The notes below the pieces were generated by a model. That model had not been told where the DNA came from. It made no database searches and saw only the letters and a program-made list of their open reading frames with translations. A DNA stretch of 39,449 nt from Candidatus Nitrosotenuis sp. (GTDB lineage Archaea; Thermoproteota; Nitrososphaeria; Nitrososphaerales; Nitrosopumilaceae): assembly GCA_016844685.1 (NCBI GenBank), contig JAENJF010000002.1, positions 1-39,449 of the forward strand, given 5' to 3'. Of this stretch, positions 1 to 7,383 are shown piece by piece. The position numbers were made by a program, and so were the translations under genes. Each line of letters begins with the position of its first letter. The stretch's first letter is position 1.

Positions 1-465
1 CCAATAATTGGAAGCTGGGGAAGGGGAATTTTGCCCTTGCGAGACTACGACACTACAGAAGCAATAATAGAAATGCGCGACATTTCAGATGGCTCACATG
101 ACAGGATTTACTATTTACAGGAAATGATAAACCGCCCGCCGCGCGATATCCGAGCAATAACAGTTGGAGACCAGGTAATTGCAGCAATGTATAGAAAGTC
201 ACAGGGCGATTTTAAGACAAACATTGCCCTTGGAGGCGATCCAGAAGTATGTGAAATCACAAAAGAAATGGAAGATATTTGCATCAAGGCATCAAAGGCA
301 GTCGGTGGTGGAATTCTAGGAATCGATCTAATGGAGGATGAAAAACGGGGACTGGTAGTACACGAAGTGAATAATACCGTGGAATTCAAGGGGCTCGCAA
401 GGGTTGCCAAAAAAAACATCCCGCAAGAAATGATTAATTTTGCCCTGAATCAGGTTATCAAATAA
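1..465 (+). CDS. argX: LysX/ArgX-type ATP-grasp ligase, 5' end outside window
   Basis: C-terminal part of a RimK-family ATP-grasp ligase that joins an amino acid (glutamate for arginine, or alpha-aminoadipate for lysine) to the C-terminus of LysW. The reading frame is open from base 1 and begins with GSWGRG, the loop that the second ligase at 5404 has as GSWGRM, so the true start lies upstream. A TTG at 31 is only an internal codon. The ATP-grasp signatures RPPRDIRA, GGILGIDLME and VHEVNNTVEF are visible. It heads the lysY-lysZ-lysJ run with a 25-bp gap. The ArgX role is assigned by elimination, because the other copy sits beside lysW; specificity cannot be read with certainty. Confidence 0.85.
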   Translation, partial: PIIGSWGRGILPLRDYDTTEAIIEMRDISDGSHDRIYYLQEMINRPPRDIRAITVGDQVIAAMYRKSQGDFKTNIALGGDPEVCEITKEMEDICIKASKAVGGGILGIDLMEDEKRGLVVHEVNNTVEFKGLARVAKKNIPQEMINFALNQVIK

Positions 466-490: not shown

Positions 491-1546
491 ATGTTAAGAG
501 TAGGAGTAGTTGGTGCGTCCGGATTTGTAGGCGGAGAAATGCTACGTCTTTTGGTATCGCACCCCAAAGTCGAAATCGCGATGGTCACATCAAGGCAATA
601 CATAGGAGAGTACATCCACAGAATTCAACCATCACTCAAGGGATTTACAGAAATGACGTTTTCCGAACTAGATTATGATAAAATGTCAGACAAATGCGAT
701 CTTGTATTTACTGCAGTTCCACACGGAACCGCAACTGAAATAGTAAAAGCGCTGTACGACAGAGGCCTCAAAGTAGTAGACCTTTCTGCAGATTACAGAT
801 TACACAATCCAGAGGCATATGTAAAGTGGTACGGATGGGAACACCCACATCCAGAGTATTTGGAAAAATCAGTGTTTGGCGTTCCAGAATTACACAGAGA
901 TAAAATCAGAAATGCACAACTTGTGTCATGTCCTGGATGTATGGCAGTAACATCAATGCTGGCACTAGTTCCACTAATCAAAAACAACGTAATTGACACA
1001 GAGCATATTGTGGTTGATTCTAAAATTGGCTCATCGGGTGCAGGTGCGGGAAGCGTTGCAGGAACGCATCATGCAATGAGGTCAGGCGTCATCAGGCCAT
1101 ACAAACCTGCAAAGCACAGACACACAGGTGAGATAGAGCAGGAACTAAGCGAGATTGCAGGAAAGCACATCAGCATATCAATGAGTCCCCATGCAGTCGA
1201 TGTGGTTCGAGGAATTCTTTGCACAAACCACACATTCATGCTAAAAGACATGAACGAACTTGAAATATGGAAATTATACAGAGAACAATACAAGGATGAG
1301 CGATTCATCAGACTGATTCGCGACAAAAAAGGACTGTACAAGTTTCCAGATCCAAAGTTTGTAGTTGGCTCCAACTTCTGTGACATTGGATTTGACATTG
1401 ATGAGGACAACCACAGACTAGTTGCATTATCAGCTTCTGATAACCTAATGAAGGGCGCAGCGGGCTCTGCCATCCAAAACATGAACGTCATGTCGGGCTT
1501 TGATGAGATGGATGGCCTGAGATATTCACCTCTAACTCCAGTTTAA
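491..1546 (+). CDS. lysY: LysW-linked acyl-phosphate reductase LysY/ArgC
   Basis: Reduces the LysW-bound aminoadipyl-phosphate (and probably glutamyl-phosphate) to the semialdehyde with NADPH. The 351-aa protein shows the N-terminal nucleotide-binding GASGFVGGEM, the active-site SCPGC with Cys150, and the HRHTGEIEQEL segment near residue 210, all typical of ArgC/LysY. The ATG is preceded by GGAG six nt upstream. It lies four bases before lysZ and is clearly co-transcribed with the ligase upstream and the kinase downstream. Only one reductase is present in the cluster, so it probably serves both lysine and arginine synthesis (inference). Confidence 0.93.
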   Translation: MLRVGVVGASGFVGGEMLRLLVSHPKVEIAMVTSRQYIGEYIHRIQPSLKGFTEMTFSELDYDKMSDKCDLVFTAVPHGTATEIVKALYDRGLKVVDLSADYRLHNPEAYVKWYGWEHPHPEYLEKSVFGVPELHRDKIRNAQLVSCPGCMAVTSMLALVPLIKNNVIDTEHIVVDSKIGSSGAGAGSVAGTHHAMRSGVIRPYKPAKHRHTGEIEQELSEIAGKHISISMSPHAVDVVRGILCTNHTFMLKDMNELEIWKLYREQYKDERFIRLIRDKKGLYKFPDPKFVVGSNFCDIGFDIDEDNHRLVALSASDNLMKGAAGSAIQNMNVMSGFDEMDGLRYSPLTPV

Positions 1547-1550
1547 AAAA

Positions 1551-2351
1551 ATGATTACAATCAAAATTGGCGGAAGTGTAGTAGAAAATCTCCATCCATC
1601 AACAATTCCCGACATCAAAAAAGTAGCAGAGAATGAAGGAGTAATACTGGTGCACGGCGGGGGAAAGGAAGTAACAAAGACATGTGAGGCTTTGGGAAAA
1701 GAGCCAAAATTCGTAGTATCCCCAAGCGGAATAAAGAGCAGATACACAGACAGGGAGACTGTAGAAATTTTCACAATGGTAATGTCTGGTAAAATCAACA
1801 AGGCAATAGTCCAGATGCTGCAAAAAAGTGGAATAAACGCAGTAGGACTAAGCGGTGTTGATGGAAAAATATTTCAAGCAGAAAGAAAGGACAAACTAGT
1901 AATCATAAACGAAAAGGGCAGAAAGCAGGTAATTGATGGAGGATATACTGGAAAGGTAACAAGTGTCAATTCGGACCTGCTCAAACTATTACTGGACCAA
2001 GGATACGTGCCTGTAATATCGCCAATTGCCTTATCCAAAGAGTTTGACTTTTTGAACATAGATGGTGACAGGGCTGCAGCAAATGTTGCAGGAAGTATAC
2101 ACAGTGACAAGGTTTTGTTTTTGACTAATGTTGATGGGTTGCTCATGAATGACAAACTAGTCGAGAAGCTCTCAAATGCAGAAGCAAAAGAAATAAGGCC
2201 AAAAGTTGGATTTGGAATGGAAAAGAAAATACTTGCTGCAACTGAGGCACTAGACATGGGGGTAAGGGAGGCATTAATTGCAAACGGCCAGCGGGAAAAT
2301 CCTATATCATCGGCAATTTCACATCAAAGGTGCACGGTAATTAGCAAATGA
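1551..2351 (+). CDS. lysZ: LysW-linked aminoadipate/glutamate kinase LysZ
   Basis: Amino-acid kinase of the ArgB/LysZ family, phosphorylating the side-chain carboxylate of LysW-bound aminoadipate or glutamate. Visible signatures are KIGGSVVENL at the N-terminus, VHGGGKEV near residue 35, GLSGVDGK in the middle and FLNIDGDRAA followed by LTNVDGLL toward the C-terminus. Its 266 aa is normal for the family. The ATG follows the lysY stop by four bases, and its TGA overlaps the lysJ ATG (ATGA), so translational coupling is likely. Confidence 0.93.
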   Translation: MITIKIGGSVVENLHPSTIPDIKKVAENEGVILVHGGGKEVTKTCEALGKEPKFVVSPSGIKSRYTDRETVEIFTMVMSGKINKAIVQMLQKSGINAVGLSGVDGKIFQAERKDKLVIINEKGRKQVIDGGYTGKVTSVNSDLLKLLLDQGYVPVISPIALSKEFDFLNIDGDRAAANVAGSIHSDKVLFLTNVDGLLMNDKLVEKLSNAEAKEIRPKVGFGMEKKILAATEALDMGVREALIANGQRENPISSAISHQRCTVISK

Positions 2352-3538
2352 CTGAAGATGACTTTTTGGGCAGTCTGTATCAAAGATTCCCAGTAACAGT
2401 GGAAAGGGGATTGGGGACACGAGTCTGGGACATCAACGATAAAGAATACATCGACTGCATGGGCGGATATGGAGTAGCGCTAGTTGGACACAGAAACCCT
2501 CGAGTTGTAAATGCAATCAAGTCACAGCTAGACAAAATCATTACAGTTCACAGTTCGCTGTACAACAAGACACGTGAAGAGTTTTTGGAAAATCTAATCA
2601 GACTTGCTCCAAAAAAACTATCTCAGGTTCACCTAGGGAACAGTGGTACAGAGGCAGTAGAGGCTGCAATAAAGTTTGCAAGAAAGTTCACCGGAAAACC
2701 TGGTATGATCGCGATGAATGGCTCATACCATGGAAAATCCATGGGTGCACTGTCAATTACATTTAATCCGAAATATAGAAAGGCATTCATGCCACTTGTA
2801 GAAAAGGTAACATTTTCTCCATTTGGTGATATTGAAACGCTCCGGACAAAAATAGACAAGGACACTTCATTCATAATTATTGAGCCAATCCAAGGAGAAG
2901 GCGGAATCCATCCCGCACCAAACGGCTTTTTGCAAGAGGTTAGAAAGCTTTGCGATGAGAACGGAATTCTGCTAATTTTTGACGAAATTCAGTCAGGTCT
3001 TGGAAGAACAGGTAAAATGTGGGCGTGTGACCACTGGAATACGGCACCAGACATAATGTGCTTGGCAAAAGGAATTGCAGGCGGTGTTCCAATGAGTGCC
3101 ACTTTGGTTCGGCCAGACATTTTGGCTGCAATGAGCAAGGGCGAGCACTCATCCACGTTTGGTGGAAACCCATTGTCCTGTGCTGCAGGAACTGCCACAT
3201 TAAAGGCACTAACAGAAGATGGACTAGTCGACAATGCGGCAAGAGTTGGAAAGATACTCCGGGAGGGATTAGAAAAGCTCAAAAACAAACACAGCGTAAT
3301 TCGCGAAATTAGGGGAATTGGATTGATGATAGGAATAGAAATGAAGTTTGAGGTAAAGGACATACTAATGGACGGAATTTCAGAAGGAGTCTTGCTGTTA
3401 TACTCTGGCAGAAATATAATCAGACTGCTTCCACCACTGGTATTATCAGAGCAAGACATTACAAAAGTATTAGAAGTACTAGACAGACTAATGATAAGAG
3501 AGGCAGAGAGGAGAAAAAATGTACAAGGACAAGACTGA
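2348..3538 (+). CDS. lysJ: LysW-aminoadipate semialdehyde/glutamate semialdehyde aminotransferase LysJ
   Basis: Class III PLP-dependent aminotransferase of the ArgD/LysJ group, which converts the LysW-bound semialdehyde to LysW-lysine or LysW-ornithine with glutamate as donor. The PLP lysine is Lys241 in CLAKGIAGG, preceded by FDEIQSGLGRTG; the phosphate-binding GNSGTEA lies near residue 97. Full length at 396 aa. Starts within lysZ (4-bp overlap), and its 3' end overlaps the Lrp gene by 20 bp, so all are read as one transcript. Confidence 0.93.
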   Translation: MTEDDFLGSLYQRFPVTVERGLGTRVWDINDKEYIDCMGGYGVALVGHRNPRVVNAIKSQLDKIITVHSSLYNKTREEFLENLIRLAPKKLSQVHLGNSGTEAVEAAIKFARKFTGKPGMIAMNGSYHGKSMGALSITFNPKYRKAFMPLVEKVTFSPFGDIETLRTKIDKDTSFIIIEPIQGEGGIHPAPNGFLQEVRKLCDENGILLIFDEIQSGLGRTGKMWACDHWNTAPDIMCLAKGIAGGVPMSATLVRPDILAAMSKGEHSSTFGGNPLSCAAGTATLKALTEDGLVDNAARVGKILREGLEKLKNKHSVIREIRGIGLMIGIEMKFEVKDILMDGISEGVLLLYSGRNIIRLLPPLVLSEQDITKVLEVLDRLMIREAERRKNVQGQD

Positions 3539-3938
3539 TGACGAAATCTTAAAGATCTTAAAAGAAGACTCTAGAGAATCCTTTGTAGACATTGGAAAAA
3601 AGCTAAAGCTATCAGAATCAGCAGTAAGACGCAGAGTAAAGAATCTCGTTGACAAAAAAGTAATTAAAAAATTTACAGTGGAAATGGGTGAGCAAAATTC
3701 AACAAAGGCAATCGTACTGATATCGGTGGAATCATCAATGGACACAGCAAAGGTCTCTGCAAAGCTGACAAGCCTTGAAGGAGTAAAGACAGTCTATGAA
3801 ATCACAGGACAGTACGATATAGCAGTGATAATTTCTGCGCCAAACATAACAGAAATCAACGGTTCAATTGACGCACTAAGAAAGATTCCGGGAGTATCAG
3901 ACACCAACACAGTAATTATTCTGCGCGAAGTCACATAG
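3519..3938 (+). CDS. Lrp/AsnC-family regulator (LysM-like)
   Basis: Small feast/famine regulator of 139 aa: an N-terminal winged helix (DEILKILKEDSRESFVDI, then a recognition helix around SESAVRRRVKNL) followed by a RAM ligand-binding domain with the G-x-YD type segment EITGQYDIAVII. It overlaps the end of lysJ by 20 bp. In Sulfolobus the Lrp protein LysM is encoded in the lys cluster and responds to lysine, so a similar local role is likely (inference from position). The next promoter, before the homocitrate synthase gene, is a plausible target. Confidence 0.85.
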   Translation: MYKDKTDDEILKILKEDSRESFVDIGKKLKLSESAVRRRVKNLVDKKVIKKFTVEMGEQNSTKAIVLISVESSMDTAKVSAKLTSLEGVKTVYEITGQYDIAVIISAPNITEINGSIDALRKIPGVSDTNTVIILREVT

Positions 3939-4055: not shown

Positions 4056-5237
4056 ATGAATGATCCGAATTACTATGCACATCTGCATAATGAGTACGAT
4101 AAAAAGCCAAGAAAAATTCACGTACTGGACAGTACCCTAAGGGAGGGAGAGCAGCACCCCGGGGTTACATTTACCAACAAACAAAGAATACAGATTGCAT
4201 GGATGCTTGATTATTTTGGAGTGGACCAAATTGAGATTTCACCAATTGTGTCAGAGGATCACTTTGTGGCAACAAAGACAATCATCAAGCAGGGATTAAA
4301 GGCAGACATTGTTGCACATGTAAGGGCTCTCAAGGCAGACGTTGATGTTGCGCTAAAATGCGACCCAAAGTGGACCGCAACTTATCTTGGAATTTCAGAT
4401 ATTCACATGAAGGACAAGCTTCGAATCACGCGAGAAGAAGCAATGAGACGGGCAGTAGAAACTGTGGAATATGCAAAAGCGCACGGATTGAAAATGAGAT
4501 TCACAGTAGAGGACGGCAGCAGGGCAGACCCAGAATTCTTACTAAAAATTTGTAAAGCAATTGAAGAGGCTGGAGTGGACAGAATCAGTCTGCCAGATAC
4601 GGTTGGAGTGATGAGGCCAAAAGGCATGTTCAATTTTGTAAAAATGGTAAAAGAAAAGATCAAGGTACCACTTGATGTTCACTGCCATAACGACATGGGT
4701 TTTGCAGTGGCAAACGCATTTGCGGGAGTGGATGCAGGGGCAGACCAGATTCACACAACAATTGACGGAATTGGCGAACGAACTGGAATTCCATCACTTG
4801 CAGAAGTCGGAGTTGCTATGACGTATCTGTACAGATCGCCAAATGATTTTAGACTAGACATGCTAAGCGACCTTTCAAAACTGATTGCAGATTATACTGG
4901 AATTCACCCGTATGATTCAAAGCCACTTGTAGGTGCTTCGGCATACAAGCACAAGGCAGGAACCCATCTGGCAGCAATTCTTAGAAATCCGGCAGCATAT
5001 GAGCCGATTCCGCCAAGAGTGGTTGGAAACAGAAGAAGAATAGTATTTGGCGAGCTGGCAGGAAAGACTGGCTCTGCTTATCTGATGTCACTATTGGGTT
5101 TGGAAGTGAATGATGATCAGGCAAAGGCAGTTGCGTCTGGCCTTAAAAACCTCAGGATGGGCGACCTCTTGGAAATACCCCTGGATAGCAAACTTGAAAG
5201 AAAGATAATTAATGACTCTAAAAGCATTAAGGAGTAG
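4056..5237 (+). CDS. lysS: homocitrate synthase (DRE-TIM metallolyase)
   Basis: Catalyses acetyl-CoA plus 2-oxoglutarate to homocitrate, the first committed step of aminoadipate-type lysine synthesis. The 393-aa protein has DSTLREGEQ near residue 24, RFTVEDGSRADPEF around 150, the metal-binding HCHNDMG near 210, a glycine-rich GIGERTGIPSL near 240 and KHKAGTHLAAI near 305. These match homocitrate synthase better than isopropylmalate synthase; there is no long C-terminal LeuA regulatory domain. The placement directly before lysW supports the lysine role. Isopropylmalate or citramalate synthase is the alternative. Confidence 0.85.
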   Translation: MNDPNYYAHLHNEYDKKPRKIHVLDSTLREGEQHPGVTFTNKQRIQIAWMLDYFGVDQIEISPIVSEDHFVATKTIIKQGLKADIVAHVRALKADVDVALKCDPKWTATYLGISDIHMKDKLRITREEAMRRAVETVEYAKAHGLKMRFTVEDGSRADPEFLLKICKAIEEAGVDRISLPDTVGVMRPKGMFNFVKMVKEKIKVPLDVHCHNDMGFAVANAFAGVDAGADQIHTTIDGIGERTGIPSLAEVGVAMTYLYRSPNDFRLDMLSDLSKLIADYTGIHPYDSKPLVGASAYKHKAGTHLAAILRNPAAYEPIPPRVVGNRRRIVFGELAGKTGSAYLMSLLGLEVNDDQAKAVASGLKNLRMGDLLEIPLDSKLERKIINDSKSIKE

Positions 5238-5239
5238 AC

Positions 5240-5407
5240 ATGGTAAAATGCACTGAATGTGATTCCGATATTTCAGTTCCAAGTGATGCCCTAGAAGGCG
5301 AGATCGTTACTTGCCCCGATTGCGGTGCAAGTTTTGAGATAACCAAATCTTCAAGTGGATTTGGGCTAAAGCCGGCCCAAAGCGTTGGAGAGGATTGGGG
5401 GCAGTGA
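5240..5407 (+). CDS. lysW: amino-group carrier protein LysW (ends in Gln)
   Basis: A 55-aa acidic carrier to whose C-terminus the ligases attach aminoadipate or glutamate. It begins MVKCTEC, with a second pair CPDC at residues 25-28 giving a zinc site. It ends in the family tail EDWG, but the last codon is CAG (Gln) at 5402-5404 followed by TGA, whereas characterised LysW proteins end in EDWGE with the Glu side chain as attachment point. GGAG lies five nt before the ATG. The stop overlaps the lysX GTG (GTGA). The identification is firm from motif, size and neighbours; the functional meaning of the terminal Gln is open. Confidence 0.9.
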   Translation: MVKCTECDSDISVPSDALEGEIVTCPDCGASFEITKSSSGFGLKPAQSVGEDWGQ

Positions 5408-6249
5408 GCCCCGGAATAACGGTCCTTTACGATACTATCCGTCTTGAAGAAAAAGCCCTCTCAGAAGCTGCAAAGAAAAAGGGCATCGAGTTAGACATGG
5501 TAGATTGTAAAAACCTTGTTTTAGAGCTAGAGCAAAAAACCCAATTCAAGACAGTTCTGCAGCGATGTGTTAGTTACTATAGGAATTTGCACGCAACTGC
5601 GGCACTGGAGGGAATGGGTGCAAACGTGATAAACTCACTACACACAGGAATCTATGCTGGAAACAAGCTATTCACCCACATGATTTTGCAAAAACAGGGA
5701 ATTCCAACACCATTTGCCGCTGTTGCGTTTTCAAAAGACGCCGCACTTGGCGCACTAGACAAACTAGGATACCCCAAAGTAATCAAGCCAACAGTTGGAA
5801 GCTGGGGCAGAATGGTCTCAAAACTAAACAACAAAGAATCGGCGGAGGGTATCATAGAGGAGCGAGAGAAAATGTATCCCATATACCAGATTCATTATTT
5901 AGAGGAATTTGTATCAAGGCCACCACGTGACATACGAGCAATAGTAATTGGGGATAAGGTGGCAGGCGCAATTTACAGAAATTCATCAGGGGGAAACTGG
6001 AAGACAAATACTCATCTTGGTGGAACCGCAGAAATTTGCGAAATTACAGGTGAGCTAGAAGACATCTGCATCAAGGCAACCAGGGCAGTAAAGGGGCAAA
6101 TAGTTGGAGTCGACCTAATGGAAAGCAACGAAAGGGGATTGGTAGTTCATGAAATCAACAATACCACGGAATACAGAAACGTTGCACGAGTCACAAATAC
6201 GGACATTGCAGGACTAATTCTAGAATATGCAGTAAAAGCGGGAAAATAG
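5404..6249 (+). CDS. lysX: LysW-aminoadipate ligase LysX
   Basis: RimK-type ATP-grasp ligase that attaches alpha-aminoadipate to LysW. The GTG at 5404 overlaps the lysW stop by four bases and is preferred to a TTG at 5395, because coupled GTGA starts fit the operon. The 281-aa protein carries PKVIKPTVGSWGRMV (ATP lysine and flexible loop) near residue 122, SRPPRDIRAIV near 172, GVDLMES and HEINNTTEY toward the C-terminus. It is paralogous to the truncated ligase at the left edge. Position next to lysW, homocitrate synthase and lysK favours the lysine-specific role, but glutamate use is not excluded. Confidence 0.88.
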   Translation: MSPGITVLYDTIRLEEKALSEAAKKKGIELDMVDCKNLVLELEQKTQFKTVLQRCVSYYRNLHATAALEGMGANVINSLHTGIYAGNKLFTHMILQKQGIPTPFAAVAFSKDAALGALDKLGYPKVIKPTVGSWGRMVSKLNNKESAEGIIEEREKMYPIYQIHYLEEFVSRPPRDIRAIVIGDKVAGAIYRNSSGGNWKTNTHLGGTAEICEITGELEDICIKATRAVKGQIVGVDLMESNERGLVVHEINNTTEYRNVARVTNTDIAGLILEYAVKAGK

Positions 6250-6252
6250 AAA

Positions 6253-7383
6253 ATGGATTCTTCTTTTACTATTACGCCAAGGTTCTCAATCAAACTATTA
6301 GAAAAGGCACTTAGACTTTACACGCCGTCGCTTTCAGAAAGGCCAATGGCGGAGTTTCTTGCAGACAAGTGCGACGATCTTGGGTTTGAAAACGTTCGCA
6401 TAGACGAGGTTGGAAATCTGATTGCGACAATCGGTTCTGGCTCCCCAAGAGTACTTTTGTGTGGCCACATGGATACAGTACCTGGCAAGGTCAAGGTAAG
6501 AAAGGAGGGGGATTATCTGTATGGAAGGGGTGCATCTGACGCAAAGGCGCCGCTCATGGCAATGTTACTTGCAGCATCAACTATGCATCGGAATAATGGA
6601 ACAATAATTTTTGTTGGAACAGTAGATGAGGAGGGAAATGCAACGGGAATCAAGAATTTGGCAAAACAAAAACTCGATATCGATTATGCAGTGTTTGGAG
6701 AGCCAAGTGGAATAACACAGGTCACAATAGCATACAAGGGAAGAATTGCAATAAACCTCAAGGTAAATGTCGGCGATAGTGCACACGCAAGTGCGCCATG
6801 GCTTGCAAAAAATGCAATTGAAGAATCCATGAAATTCACATACGAGCTAAAGCAAGCACTGGAGGAAAACCAGGAGGGCAAGTCAAAGGGAATGATTCTT
6901 ACTGCAACAATGACTAAAATCAAGGGAGGAGATTCGCACAATGTTACCCCAAAGGAGTGTGATACCATAATGGATATTCGAATTCCAGTTACAATGAACT
7001 GTAAAATGGTTGGAGAAAAAATTTCGACAAAGGTAAGCGAGATTTCAAAAAGACTTGGAGTGGATGCGTTTTATTCTGTTTTGGATGAAACCGAACCGTT
7101 TGAGGCTCCAATGGACTCGCCGCTTGTCAGGGCATTTACACTAGGAGTAATAGATGTAGAGCGCAAAAGACCTGCGCTGATTAGAAAAACAGGAACAGGC
7201 GACATGAACATAATTGGCACACTGTGGAATATTCCAGTTGTGACTTATGGTCCGGGGGACCCCCATGCATCTCACACTATGGATGAGCGAGTATCAATGA
7301 ACGAGTATTTGCGTGGAATTGAGGTCTTGAGAAATACACTTCAACACCTAAAAAGACTTCATGATAACAAAAAAGTACTATAA
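6253..7383 (+). CDS. lysK: LysW-lysine/ornithine hydrolase LysK
   Basis: M20-family metallopeptidase that releases lysine or ornithine from LysW. Metal ligands and general base are visible: CGHMDTVPG, GRGASDAKAPL, FVGTVDEEGNATG, FGEPSG and, near the C-terminus, DPHASHTMDE with its His. Length 376 aa is normal. It starts three bases after the lysX stop, and its stop TAA shares one base with the next gene's ATG (TAATG). This completes the carrier-based pathway within the window. Confidence 0.92.
   Translation: MDSSFTITPRFSIKLLEKALRLYTPSLSERPMAEFLADKCDDLGFENVRIDEVGNLIATIGSGSPRVLLCGHMDTVPGKVKVRKEGDYLYGRGASDAKAPLMAMLLAASTMHRNNGTIIFVGTVDEEGNATGIKNLAKQKLDIDYAVFGEPSGITQVTIAYKGRIAINLKVNVGDSAHASAPWLAKNAIEESMKFTYELKQALEENQEGKSKGMILTATMTKIKGGDSHNVTPKECDTIMDIRIPVTMNCKMVGEKISTKVSEISKRLGVDAFYSVLDETEPFEAPMDSPLVRAFTLGVIDVERKRPALIRKTGTGDMNIIGTLWNIPVVTYGPGDPHASHTMDERVSMNEYLRGIEVLRNTLQHLKRLHDNKKVL

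Follow-up and report, generated by a model that had tools for sequence, protein, structure and literature searches.

A LysW amino-group carrier encoded with glutamine in place of the attachment-site glutamate in ammonia-oxidising archaea

Introduction

The amino-group carrier LysW, or ArgW, is known from Thermus, Sulfolobus, Thermococcus and Natrinema. The last residue of the protein, Glu in textbook carriers, is the attachment site: a gamma-linkage has been reported for LysW of Thermus, Sulfolobus and Thermococcus, the terminal Glu is required in Natrinema, and the GSWGR motif is reported to recognise the EDWGE tail (PMC10433800). A second system bears on this residue. Pup is Gln-encoded in some Actinobacteria, where the depupylase Dop is also the enzyme that deamidates it (PMC8599861).

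Work in Thermus and Sulfolobus is the ground on which ammonia-oxidising archaea (AOA), an abundant group, are credited with making lysine and arginine by the LysW route; a paper on Nitrosopumilus metabolism makes this assignment (PMC6038301). The locus described here, from Candidatus Nitrosotenuis sp., encodes a LysW whose last codon specifies Gln, and in most of these AOA the residue that performs the chemistry differs, as encoded, in the same way.

The lysW2 gene and its cluster

The window, that is the whole stretch of 39,449 nucleotides that was analysed (GCA_016844685.1, contig JAENJF010000002.1), carries the following features:

31..465, + strand: C-terminal part of argX, the ligase paired with the Glu-ended lysW1; cut at the contig start and continued on contig C139 (L002), the order being intact in L188 and others
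491..1546, + strand: lysY/argC, semialdehyde dehydrogenase of the carrier pathway (profile match)
1551..2351, + strand: lysZ/argB, [LysW]-aminoadipate/glutamate kinase (NF010662, 307 bits, cut-off 194)
2348..3538, + strand: lysJ/argD, class-III aminotransferase (profile match)
3519..3938, + strand: lysM, Lrp-type regulator (NF040947, 185.6 bits, cut-off 180)
4056..5237, + strand: homocitrate synthase-like gene (HMGL/HCS_D2; homocitrate/isopropylmalate-synthase-like), with all NCBIfam subfamily models under their curated cut-offs
5240..5407, + strand: lysW2, amino-group carrier LysW of 55 aa ending in EDWGQ (NF041070, PF21344, 3vpb_E)
5402..5404, + strand: CAG codon, the C-terminal Gln at the place of the attachment-site Glu, kept in relatives
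5404..6249, + strand: lysX, LysW ligase (ATP-grasp, RimK family) with GSWGR and RDIR intact (TIGR02144, 318 bits, cut-off 276)
6253..7383, + strand: lysK, [LysW]-lysine/ornithine hydrolase of the M20 family and candidate enzyme for deamidating the C-terminal Gln (profile matches)

The open reading frame at 5240-5407 (+ strand) translates as MVKCTECDSDISVPSDALEGEIVTCPDCGASFEITKSSSGFGLKPAQSVGEDWGQ and closes with a TGA stop at 5405-5407. Both zinc-ribbon Cys pairs, CTEC and CPDC, and the tail GEDWG are present in the translation. The protein scores 90 bits against the archaeal LysW model NF041070 (carrier_LysW_Arch; curated cut-off 75) and 49.7 bits against Pfam PF21344 (cut-off 27), matches 3vpb_E with E=7e-12, and stays under the cut-off of the other LysW model, TIGR01206 (28.2 bits against 53.2). 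Its gene is linked to LysX/ArgX and to the LysZ-LysY-LysJ-LysK gene set. The initial annotation of this DNA, which described an EDWG-Gln-stop ending (CAG TGA, 5402-5407) on an ordinary LysW body with ligase and hydrolase neighbours, is confirmed on both counts, by the open reading frame itself and by profile matches that place LysX and a LysK-type M20 hydrolase downstream. A standard LysW ends in a Glu whose gamma-carboxyl is loaded; the residue encoded here is Gln, and by its encoded C-terminus LysW2 is filed as a variant rather than as a standard member of the family.

The GTG start of lysX overlaps the lysW2 stop (cagTGA / GTGA). LysX belongs to TIGR02144 by model match, by GSWGR and by the near-invariant ligase residues, and a LysX fragment of Ca. 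Nitrosotenuis chungbukensis (L092) shares 96% identity with it. The cluster reads argG, lysW1, argX, lysY, lysZ, lysJ, lysM, homocitrate synthase-like gene, lysW2, lysX and lysK in relatives, with lysW1 and lysW2 approximately 6 kb apart. As argX is split over two contigs (positions 1-465 of the window; C139/L002), its parts can be compared: the overlap differs by one residue, RDISDG versus RNISDG, which suggests a mixture of strains at the contig break.

The same genome encodes a second carrier, lysW1 (507-689, minus strand, contig C139/L002), which lies between argG and ArgX and ends in EDWGE. The Gln end had been put forward as a property of the LysW of this lineage; this holds for lysW2, but the genome also has the Glu-ended paralogue. 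Glu is the last residue of lysW1 in 43 of the 44 genomes of the window's family. Across the order the tails of the two AOA paralogues usually differ, being PAE (or xAE) in the ArgX-linked and PAQ in the LysX-linked carrier. In one genome a third, partial LysW match (G006:C23:35607-35672; residues 34-55, 100% identical) stands apart from the main locus.

Distribution and recurrence of the Gln end

The initial annotation had raised a single-base error, CAG for GAG, as the dull alternative, and had proposed a comparison of the last residue over many thaumarchaeal genomes. That comparison reveals Gln to be common. All 17 searched genomes of the genus (16 besides the window's) have a Gln-ended lysW2, and the same is true of the lysW2 next to LysX in 43 of the 44 sampled genomes of the family, where the exceptions to the usual pattern are one genome with Glu/Glu (G392) and one with Gln/Gln (G103) for lysW1/lysW2. 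Among 300 genomes spread over the phylum, an EDWG tail ending in Gln was matched in 64, including one match (G194, C35:44093) that is probably no LysW, as no LysW-like open reading frame was recognised there; the Glu-ended tail was matched in 197. Named records with a Gln-ended LysW comprise Nitrosopumilus, Nitrosarchaeum, Nitrosopelagicus, Nitrosotalea, Nitrosotenuis, Cenarchaeum, Nitrososphaera, Nitrosocosmicus and Nitrosocaldus, and the form extends beyond the window's order into four families (f25, f30, f48 and f51). Of 145 distinct Gln-ended genes, 126 use CAG and 19 use CAA, and all four third bases are in use in the preceding Gly codon.

An error would need only one base in one metagenome-type assembly. 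It is nevertheless refuted by this conservation, and can be taken as excluded, because the 16 further members of the genus that were searched have Gln too, as do other genera and families, with both CAG and CAA codons.

The two ends also alternate over short distances. Under one genus code (g89), three genomes have Glu (G222, G256, G301) and two have Gln (G276, G296); under another (g105), G249 has Glu and G284 has Gln. On a tree of 90 ligases directly following a LysW, parsimony places 13 changes of the Glu/Gln label, a rough figure, since the tree was built quickly and contains some long branches; at least 8 of the changes are forced by well-supported branches, and shuffled labels change 29 times. 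Switches occur for LysX-linked and ArgX-linked carriers alike. In family f8, the ArgX-linked carrier ends in Gln and the LysX-linked one in Glu in two genera (g45, g49), one (g36) has the reverse, and four (g43, g33, g168, g169) have Gln on both; single-LysW clusters of the Nitrosocosmicus and Nitrososphaera types resemble members of this family.

A rule assigning Gln to lysine carriers and Glu to arginine carriers was considered and rejected, since all four lysW1/lysW2 combinations exist: Glu/Gln in f1 and g36, Gln/Glu in g45 and g49, Gln/Gln in the four genera just listed, and Glu/Glu in G392, G068 and G026. LysW genes on six bacterial plasmids are all Glu-ended, and no LysW with an EDWGQ-type tail was found in viral contigs. 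Gln matches in a Chloroflexi contig (L060), a Streptacidiphilus contig (L073) and two viral contigs (L265, L266) proved to be chance matches to TGG.

Judged by the genes compared, Gln-ended LysW is real and widespread, shared by most of the ammonia-oxidising archaea sampled, and has arisen repeatedly.

Lineages in which the Gln-ended carrier appears to stand alone

In several lineages the sole LysW found is Gln-ended. Nitrosocosmicus-like genomes (L167, L114, L093) combine it with both ArgX and LysX, family f25 (L161-L165) has it with two ligases, family f30 (L156-L158) with one ligase, and genus g52 (L251, L252) has one ligase and one Gln-ended LysW per cluster. Where the contig is long enough, these clusters contain lysY, lysZ, lysJ and lysK. 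The lysine and arginine pathways are presumably active in such lineages, to judge from their gene content, and a Gln-ended LysW would have to be usable if these pathways work, because it is the only carrier found in lineages that have kept them.

These clusters bear on the proposal that the Gln-ended LysW2 is never loaded and has a regulatory or other role, with the Glu-ended paralogue serving both pathways. The window's genome is compatible with such an arrangement, as its LysW1 could in principle serve both ligases; yet several lineages pair a lone Gln-ended LysW with the pathway gene set, and g45 and g49 carry Gln on the ArgX-linked paralogue instead, which makes the proposal very unlikely.

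Two arrangements deserve separate mention. In g52 argC follows argG, and the cluster lacks lysW1 and argX and has one Gln-ended LysW and one LysX; this LysX may be bifunctional, by analogy with Thermococcus. In family f48 the LysW-LysX pair has no other pathway genes recognised within approximately 10 kb (L166, G284) and a thiolase-like open reading frame just upstream, and the carrier ends in Gln in one and in Glu in the other of L166 (G284) and L236 (G249). The pair may serve another product.

Constraint on the terminal residue and on the ligase

The last position admits very little variation. A codon beginning with A or T follows EDWG in none of the 201 genomes of the order. Codons ending in a pyrimidine gave 4 matches after EDWG in the order and 17 in the phylum, and the 16 that were read in their upstream context lack a LysW body; the purine-ending codons of Leu, Pro, Arg, Val, Ala and Gly are covered, as residues, by their pyrimidine-ending counterparts. 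Asp and other terminal residues were rejected as candidates in this way, each match read in context being without a LysW body. Among 200-300 genomes, the EDWG-tailed LysW was found to end in Glu or Gln only.

The ligase is conserved across the switch. A set of 32 near-invariant positions (Thermus LysX numbering) is identical in Gln and Glu lineages, including K129, G133-S134-W135-G136-R137, R177-D178-R180, Y193-R194, N202, E249 and N251, and no ligase column moves consistently with Glu/Gln across 11 near pairs. The R/L difference in the motif TN-x-x-(R/L)-GG, a candidate tracker, was discarded, as it runs in opposite directions in LysX and ArgX. As the ligase motifs are unchanged by the switch, the easiest reading is that the ligase would see Glu in both cases.

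Rates of change were compared on a tree of 134 AOA-type LysX-linked carriers. The base that distinguishes Glu from Gln underwent 3 changes and the silent base of the Gly codon before it 23; counting only C/G exchanges, however, the silent base also has just 4, in 73 rows. The case for Gln being positively maintained by selection is weak. Glu and Gln may instead be nearly equivalent with all other residues excluded, a pattern that fits deamidation well. Gln may or may not confer an advantage, for instance by holding newly made carrier inert.

Deamidation before loading and its alternatives

The reading preferred here is that LysW2 would be made as an inactive, Gln-ended precursor of a functional amino-group carrier. 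Its terminal Gln would be hydrolysed once to Glu, after which LysX would attach alpha-aminoadipate to the gamma-carboxyl in the usual way; the carrier would cycle as Glu from then on, at the cost of one cut per carrier molecule. Deamidation is favoured because Glu and Gln interchange repeatedly, no other residue was found and the ligase active site is unchanged. A terminal residue freed from side-chain chemistry would be expected to drift, and the restriction to Glu and Gln argues for deamidation on this ground too. The Dop-like deamidation before use suggested in the initial annotation is thereby the best-supported explanation, in view of the recurrent exchange and the constant ligase motifs, although it is one that we infer.

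The likeliest deamidase would be LysK, which recognises LysW and hydrolyses its gamma-amide bond to lysine or ornithine. In that bond the amino group of lysine or ornithine is joined to the side-chain carbonyl of the C-terminal Glu; the side chain of a C-terminal Gln contains the same amide bond, from which ammonia would leave instead. A LysK homologue is present in 11 of 11 genomes tested, and the LysK-like match is unique in the window's genome and in two one-contig genomes (G012, G031). A search for a deamidase co-occurring with Gln-ended forms had also been proposed; no dedicated gene of this kind was found, and no other gene recurs beside Gln-ended LysW in the clusters compared. Gaps in the non-AOA clusters hold unrelated-looking open reading frames, as judged from translations read by eye. 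The lack of a dedicated gene suggests an enzyme that Glu lineages have as well, for which LysK is the natural candidate. The presence of LysK is not itself discriminating, as Glu lineages have it too. Binding by M20 hydrolases usually extends to the carboxylate of the amino acid that is set free; a plain amide has no such group, and LysK may for this reason be a poor deamidase. The part of LysK is accordingly more weakly inferred than deamidation as such.

The hydrolysis might be performed by a separate housekeeping amidase that acts on LysW before loading. Toggling between Glu and Gln within genera agrees with this proposal, in which no dedicated, co-inherited enzyme is needed; against it, no candidate gene is linked to the Gln-ended forms, and LysK already has the matching substrate and bond. 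A separate amidase is thus a possible but rather unlikely agent. From the sequence comparisons and the analogy with Pup, deamidation with LysK as the enzyme is given a probability of about one half; deamidation by LysK or another amidase, taken jointly, is likely.

A different solution would be for the ligases to load the alpha-carboxyl of the C-terminal residue with the substrate, leaving the side chain free to be Glu or Gln. LysX is a member of the RimK family, whose other members (RimK, MptN, CofF) form alpha-linkages, and invariant ligase motifs would be neutral to the nature of the side chain. The restriction to Glu or Gln would be equally expected from a snug side-chain pocket of an alpha-carboxyl ligase. 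However, the systems in which a gamma-linkage is reported have the same motifs that are kept here, and Natrinema requires the terminal Glu (PMC10433800); a free side chain, moreover, should in time give way to Asp, Lys, Gly, Ala or Val, each one base from Glu, and none of these was found. Use of the alpha-carboxyl by LysX/ArgX, a possibility raised in the initial annotation, is weakened by the gamma-linkage reported elsewhere and by the absence of residue drift, and must be considered unlikely. It is similarly doubtful that AOA and some of their relatives load the carrier in a manner undescribed so far, whether through the alpha-carboxyl or by direct use of Gln by the ligase.

Archaea make Gln-tRNA indirectly through GatDE: tRNA-Gln is first charged with Glu, which is then amidated. 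Some Glu could be inserted at the Gln codon on this basis, the leak providing the active carrier. Only a small fraction would be produced in this way of a carrier that is needed in quantity, and this source of Glu is highly improbable.

Significance

What this carrier is, which proteins it works with and what it probably does are known; apparently undescribed are the residue encoded at the attachment site and the activation step that it implies. No description of EDWGQ or of a Gln-ended LysW was found in the literature searched, most subscription journals lying outside the search, and an earlier mention is possible. The Gln end would imply either an unrecognised activation step, which would be a second, independent case of encoding Gln and making Glu beside Pup/Dop, or a different linkage chemistry.

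Comparison with known systems

LysW2 resembles the LysW/ArgW proteins of Thermus, Sulfolobus, Thermococcus and Natrinema in its two CxxC pairs, its acidic tail with EDWG and the position of its gene beside LysX/ArgX and the LysZ-Y-J-K set. It departs from them in that the encoded end is Gln rather than a gamma-conjugated Glu, and in that most AOA have two paralogues per genome. RimK, MptN and CofF share with LysX the ATP-grasp family and the joining of a substrate amine to a terminal carboxyl; they use the alpha-carboxyl, whereas LysX is reported to use the gamma-carboxyl. The closest parallel in logic is Pup, also a small protein. Conjugation proceeds via the gamma-carboxyl of a C-terminal Glu for Pup and for textbook LysW, and related lineages encode either Gln or Glu, as found here for LysW. 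The isopeptide hydrolase of the Pup system, Dop, is also the deamidase, a double role proposed here for LysK. The proteins themselves are unrelated: LysK is an M20 metallohydrolase and Dop is glutamine-synthetase-like.
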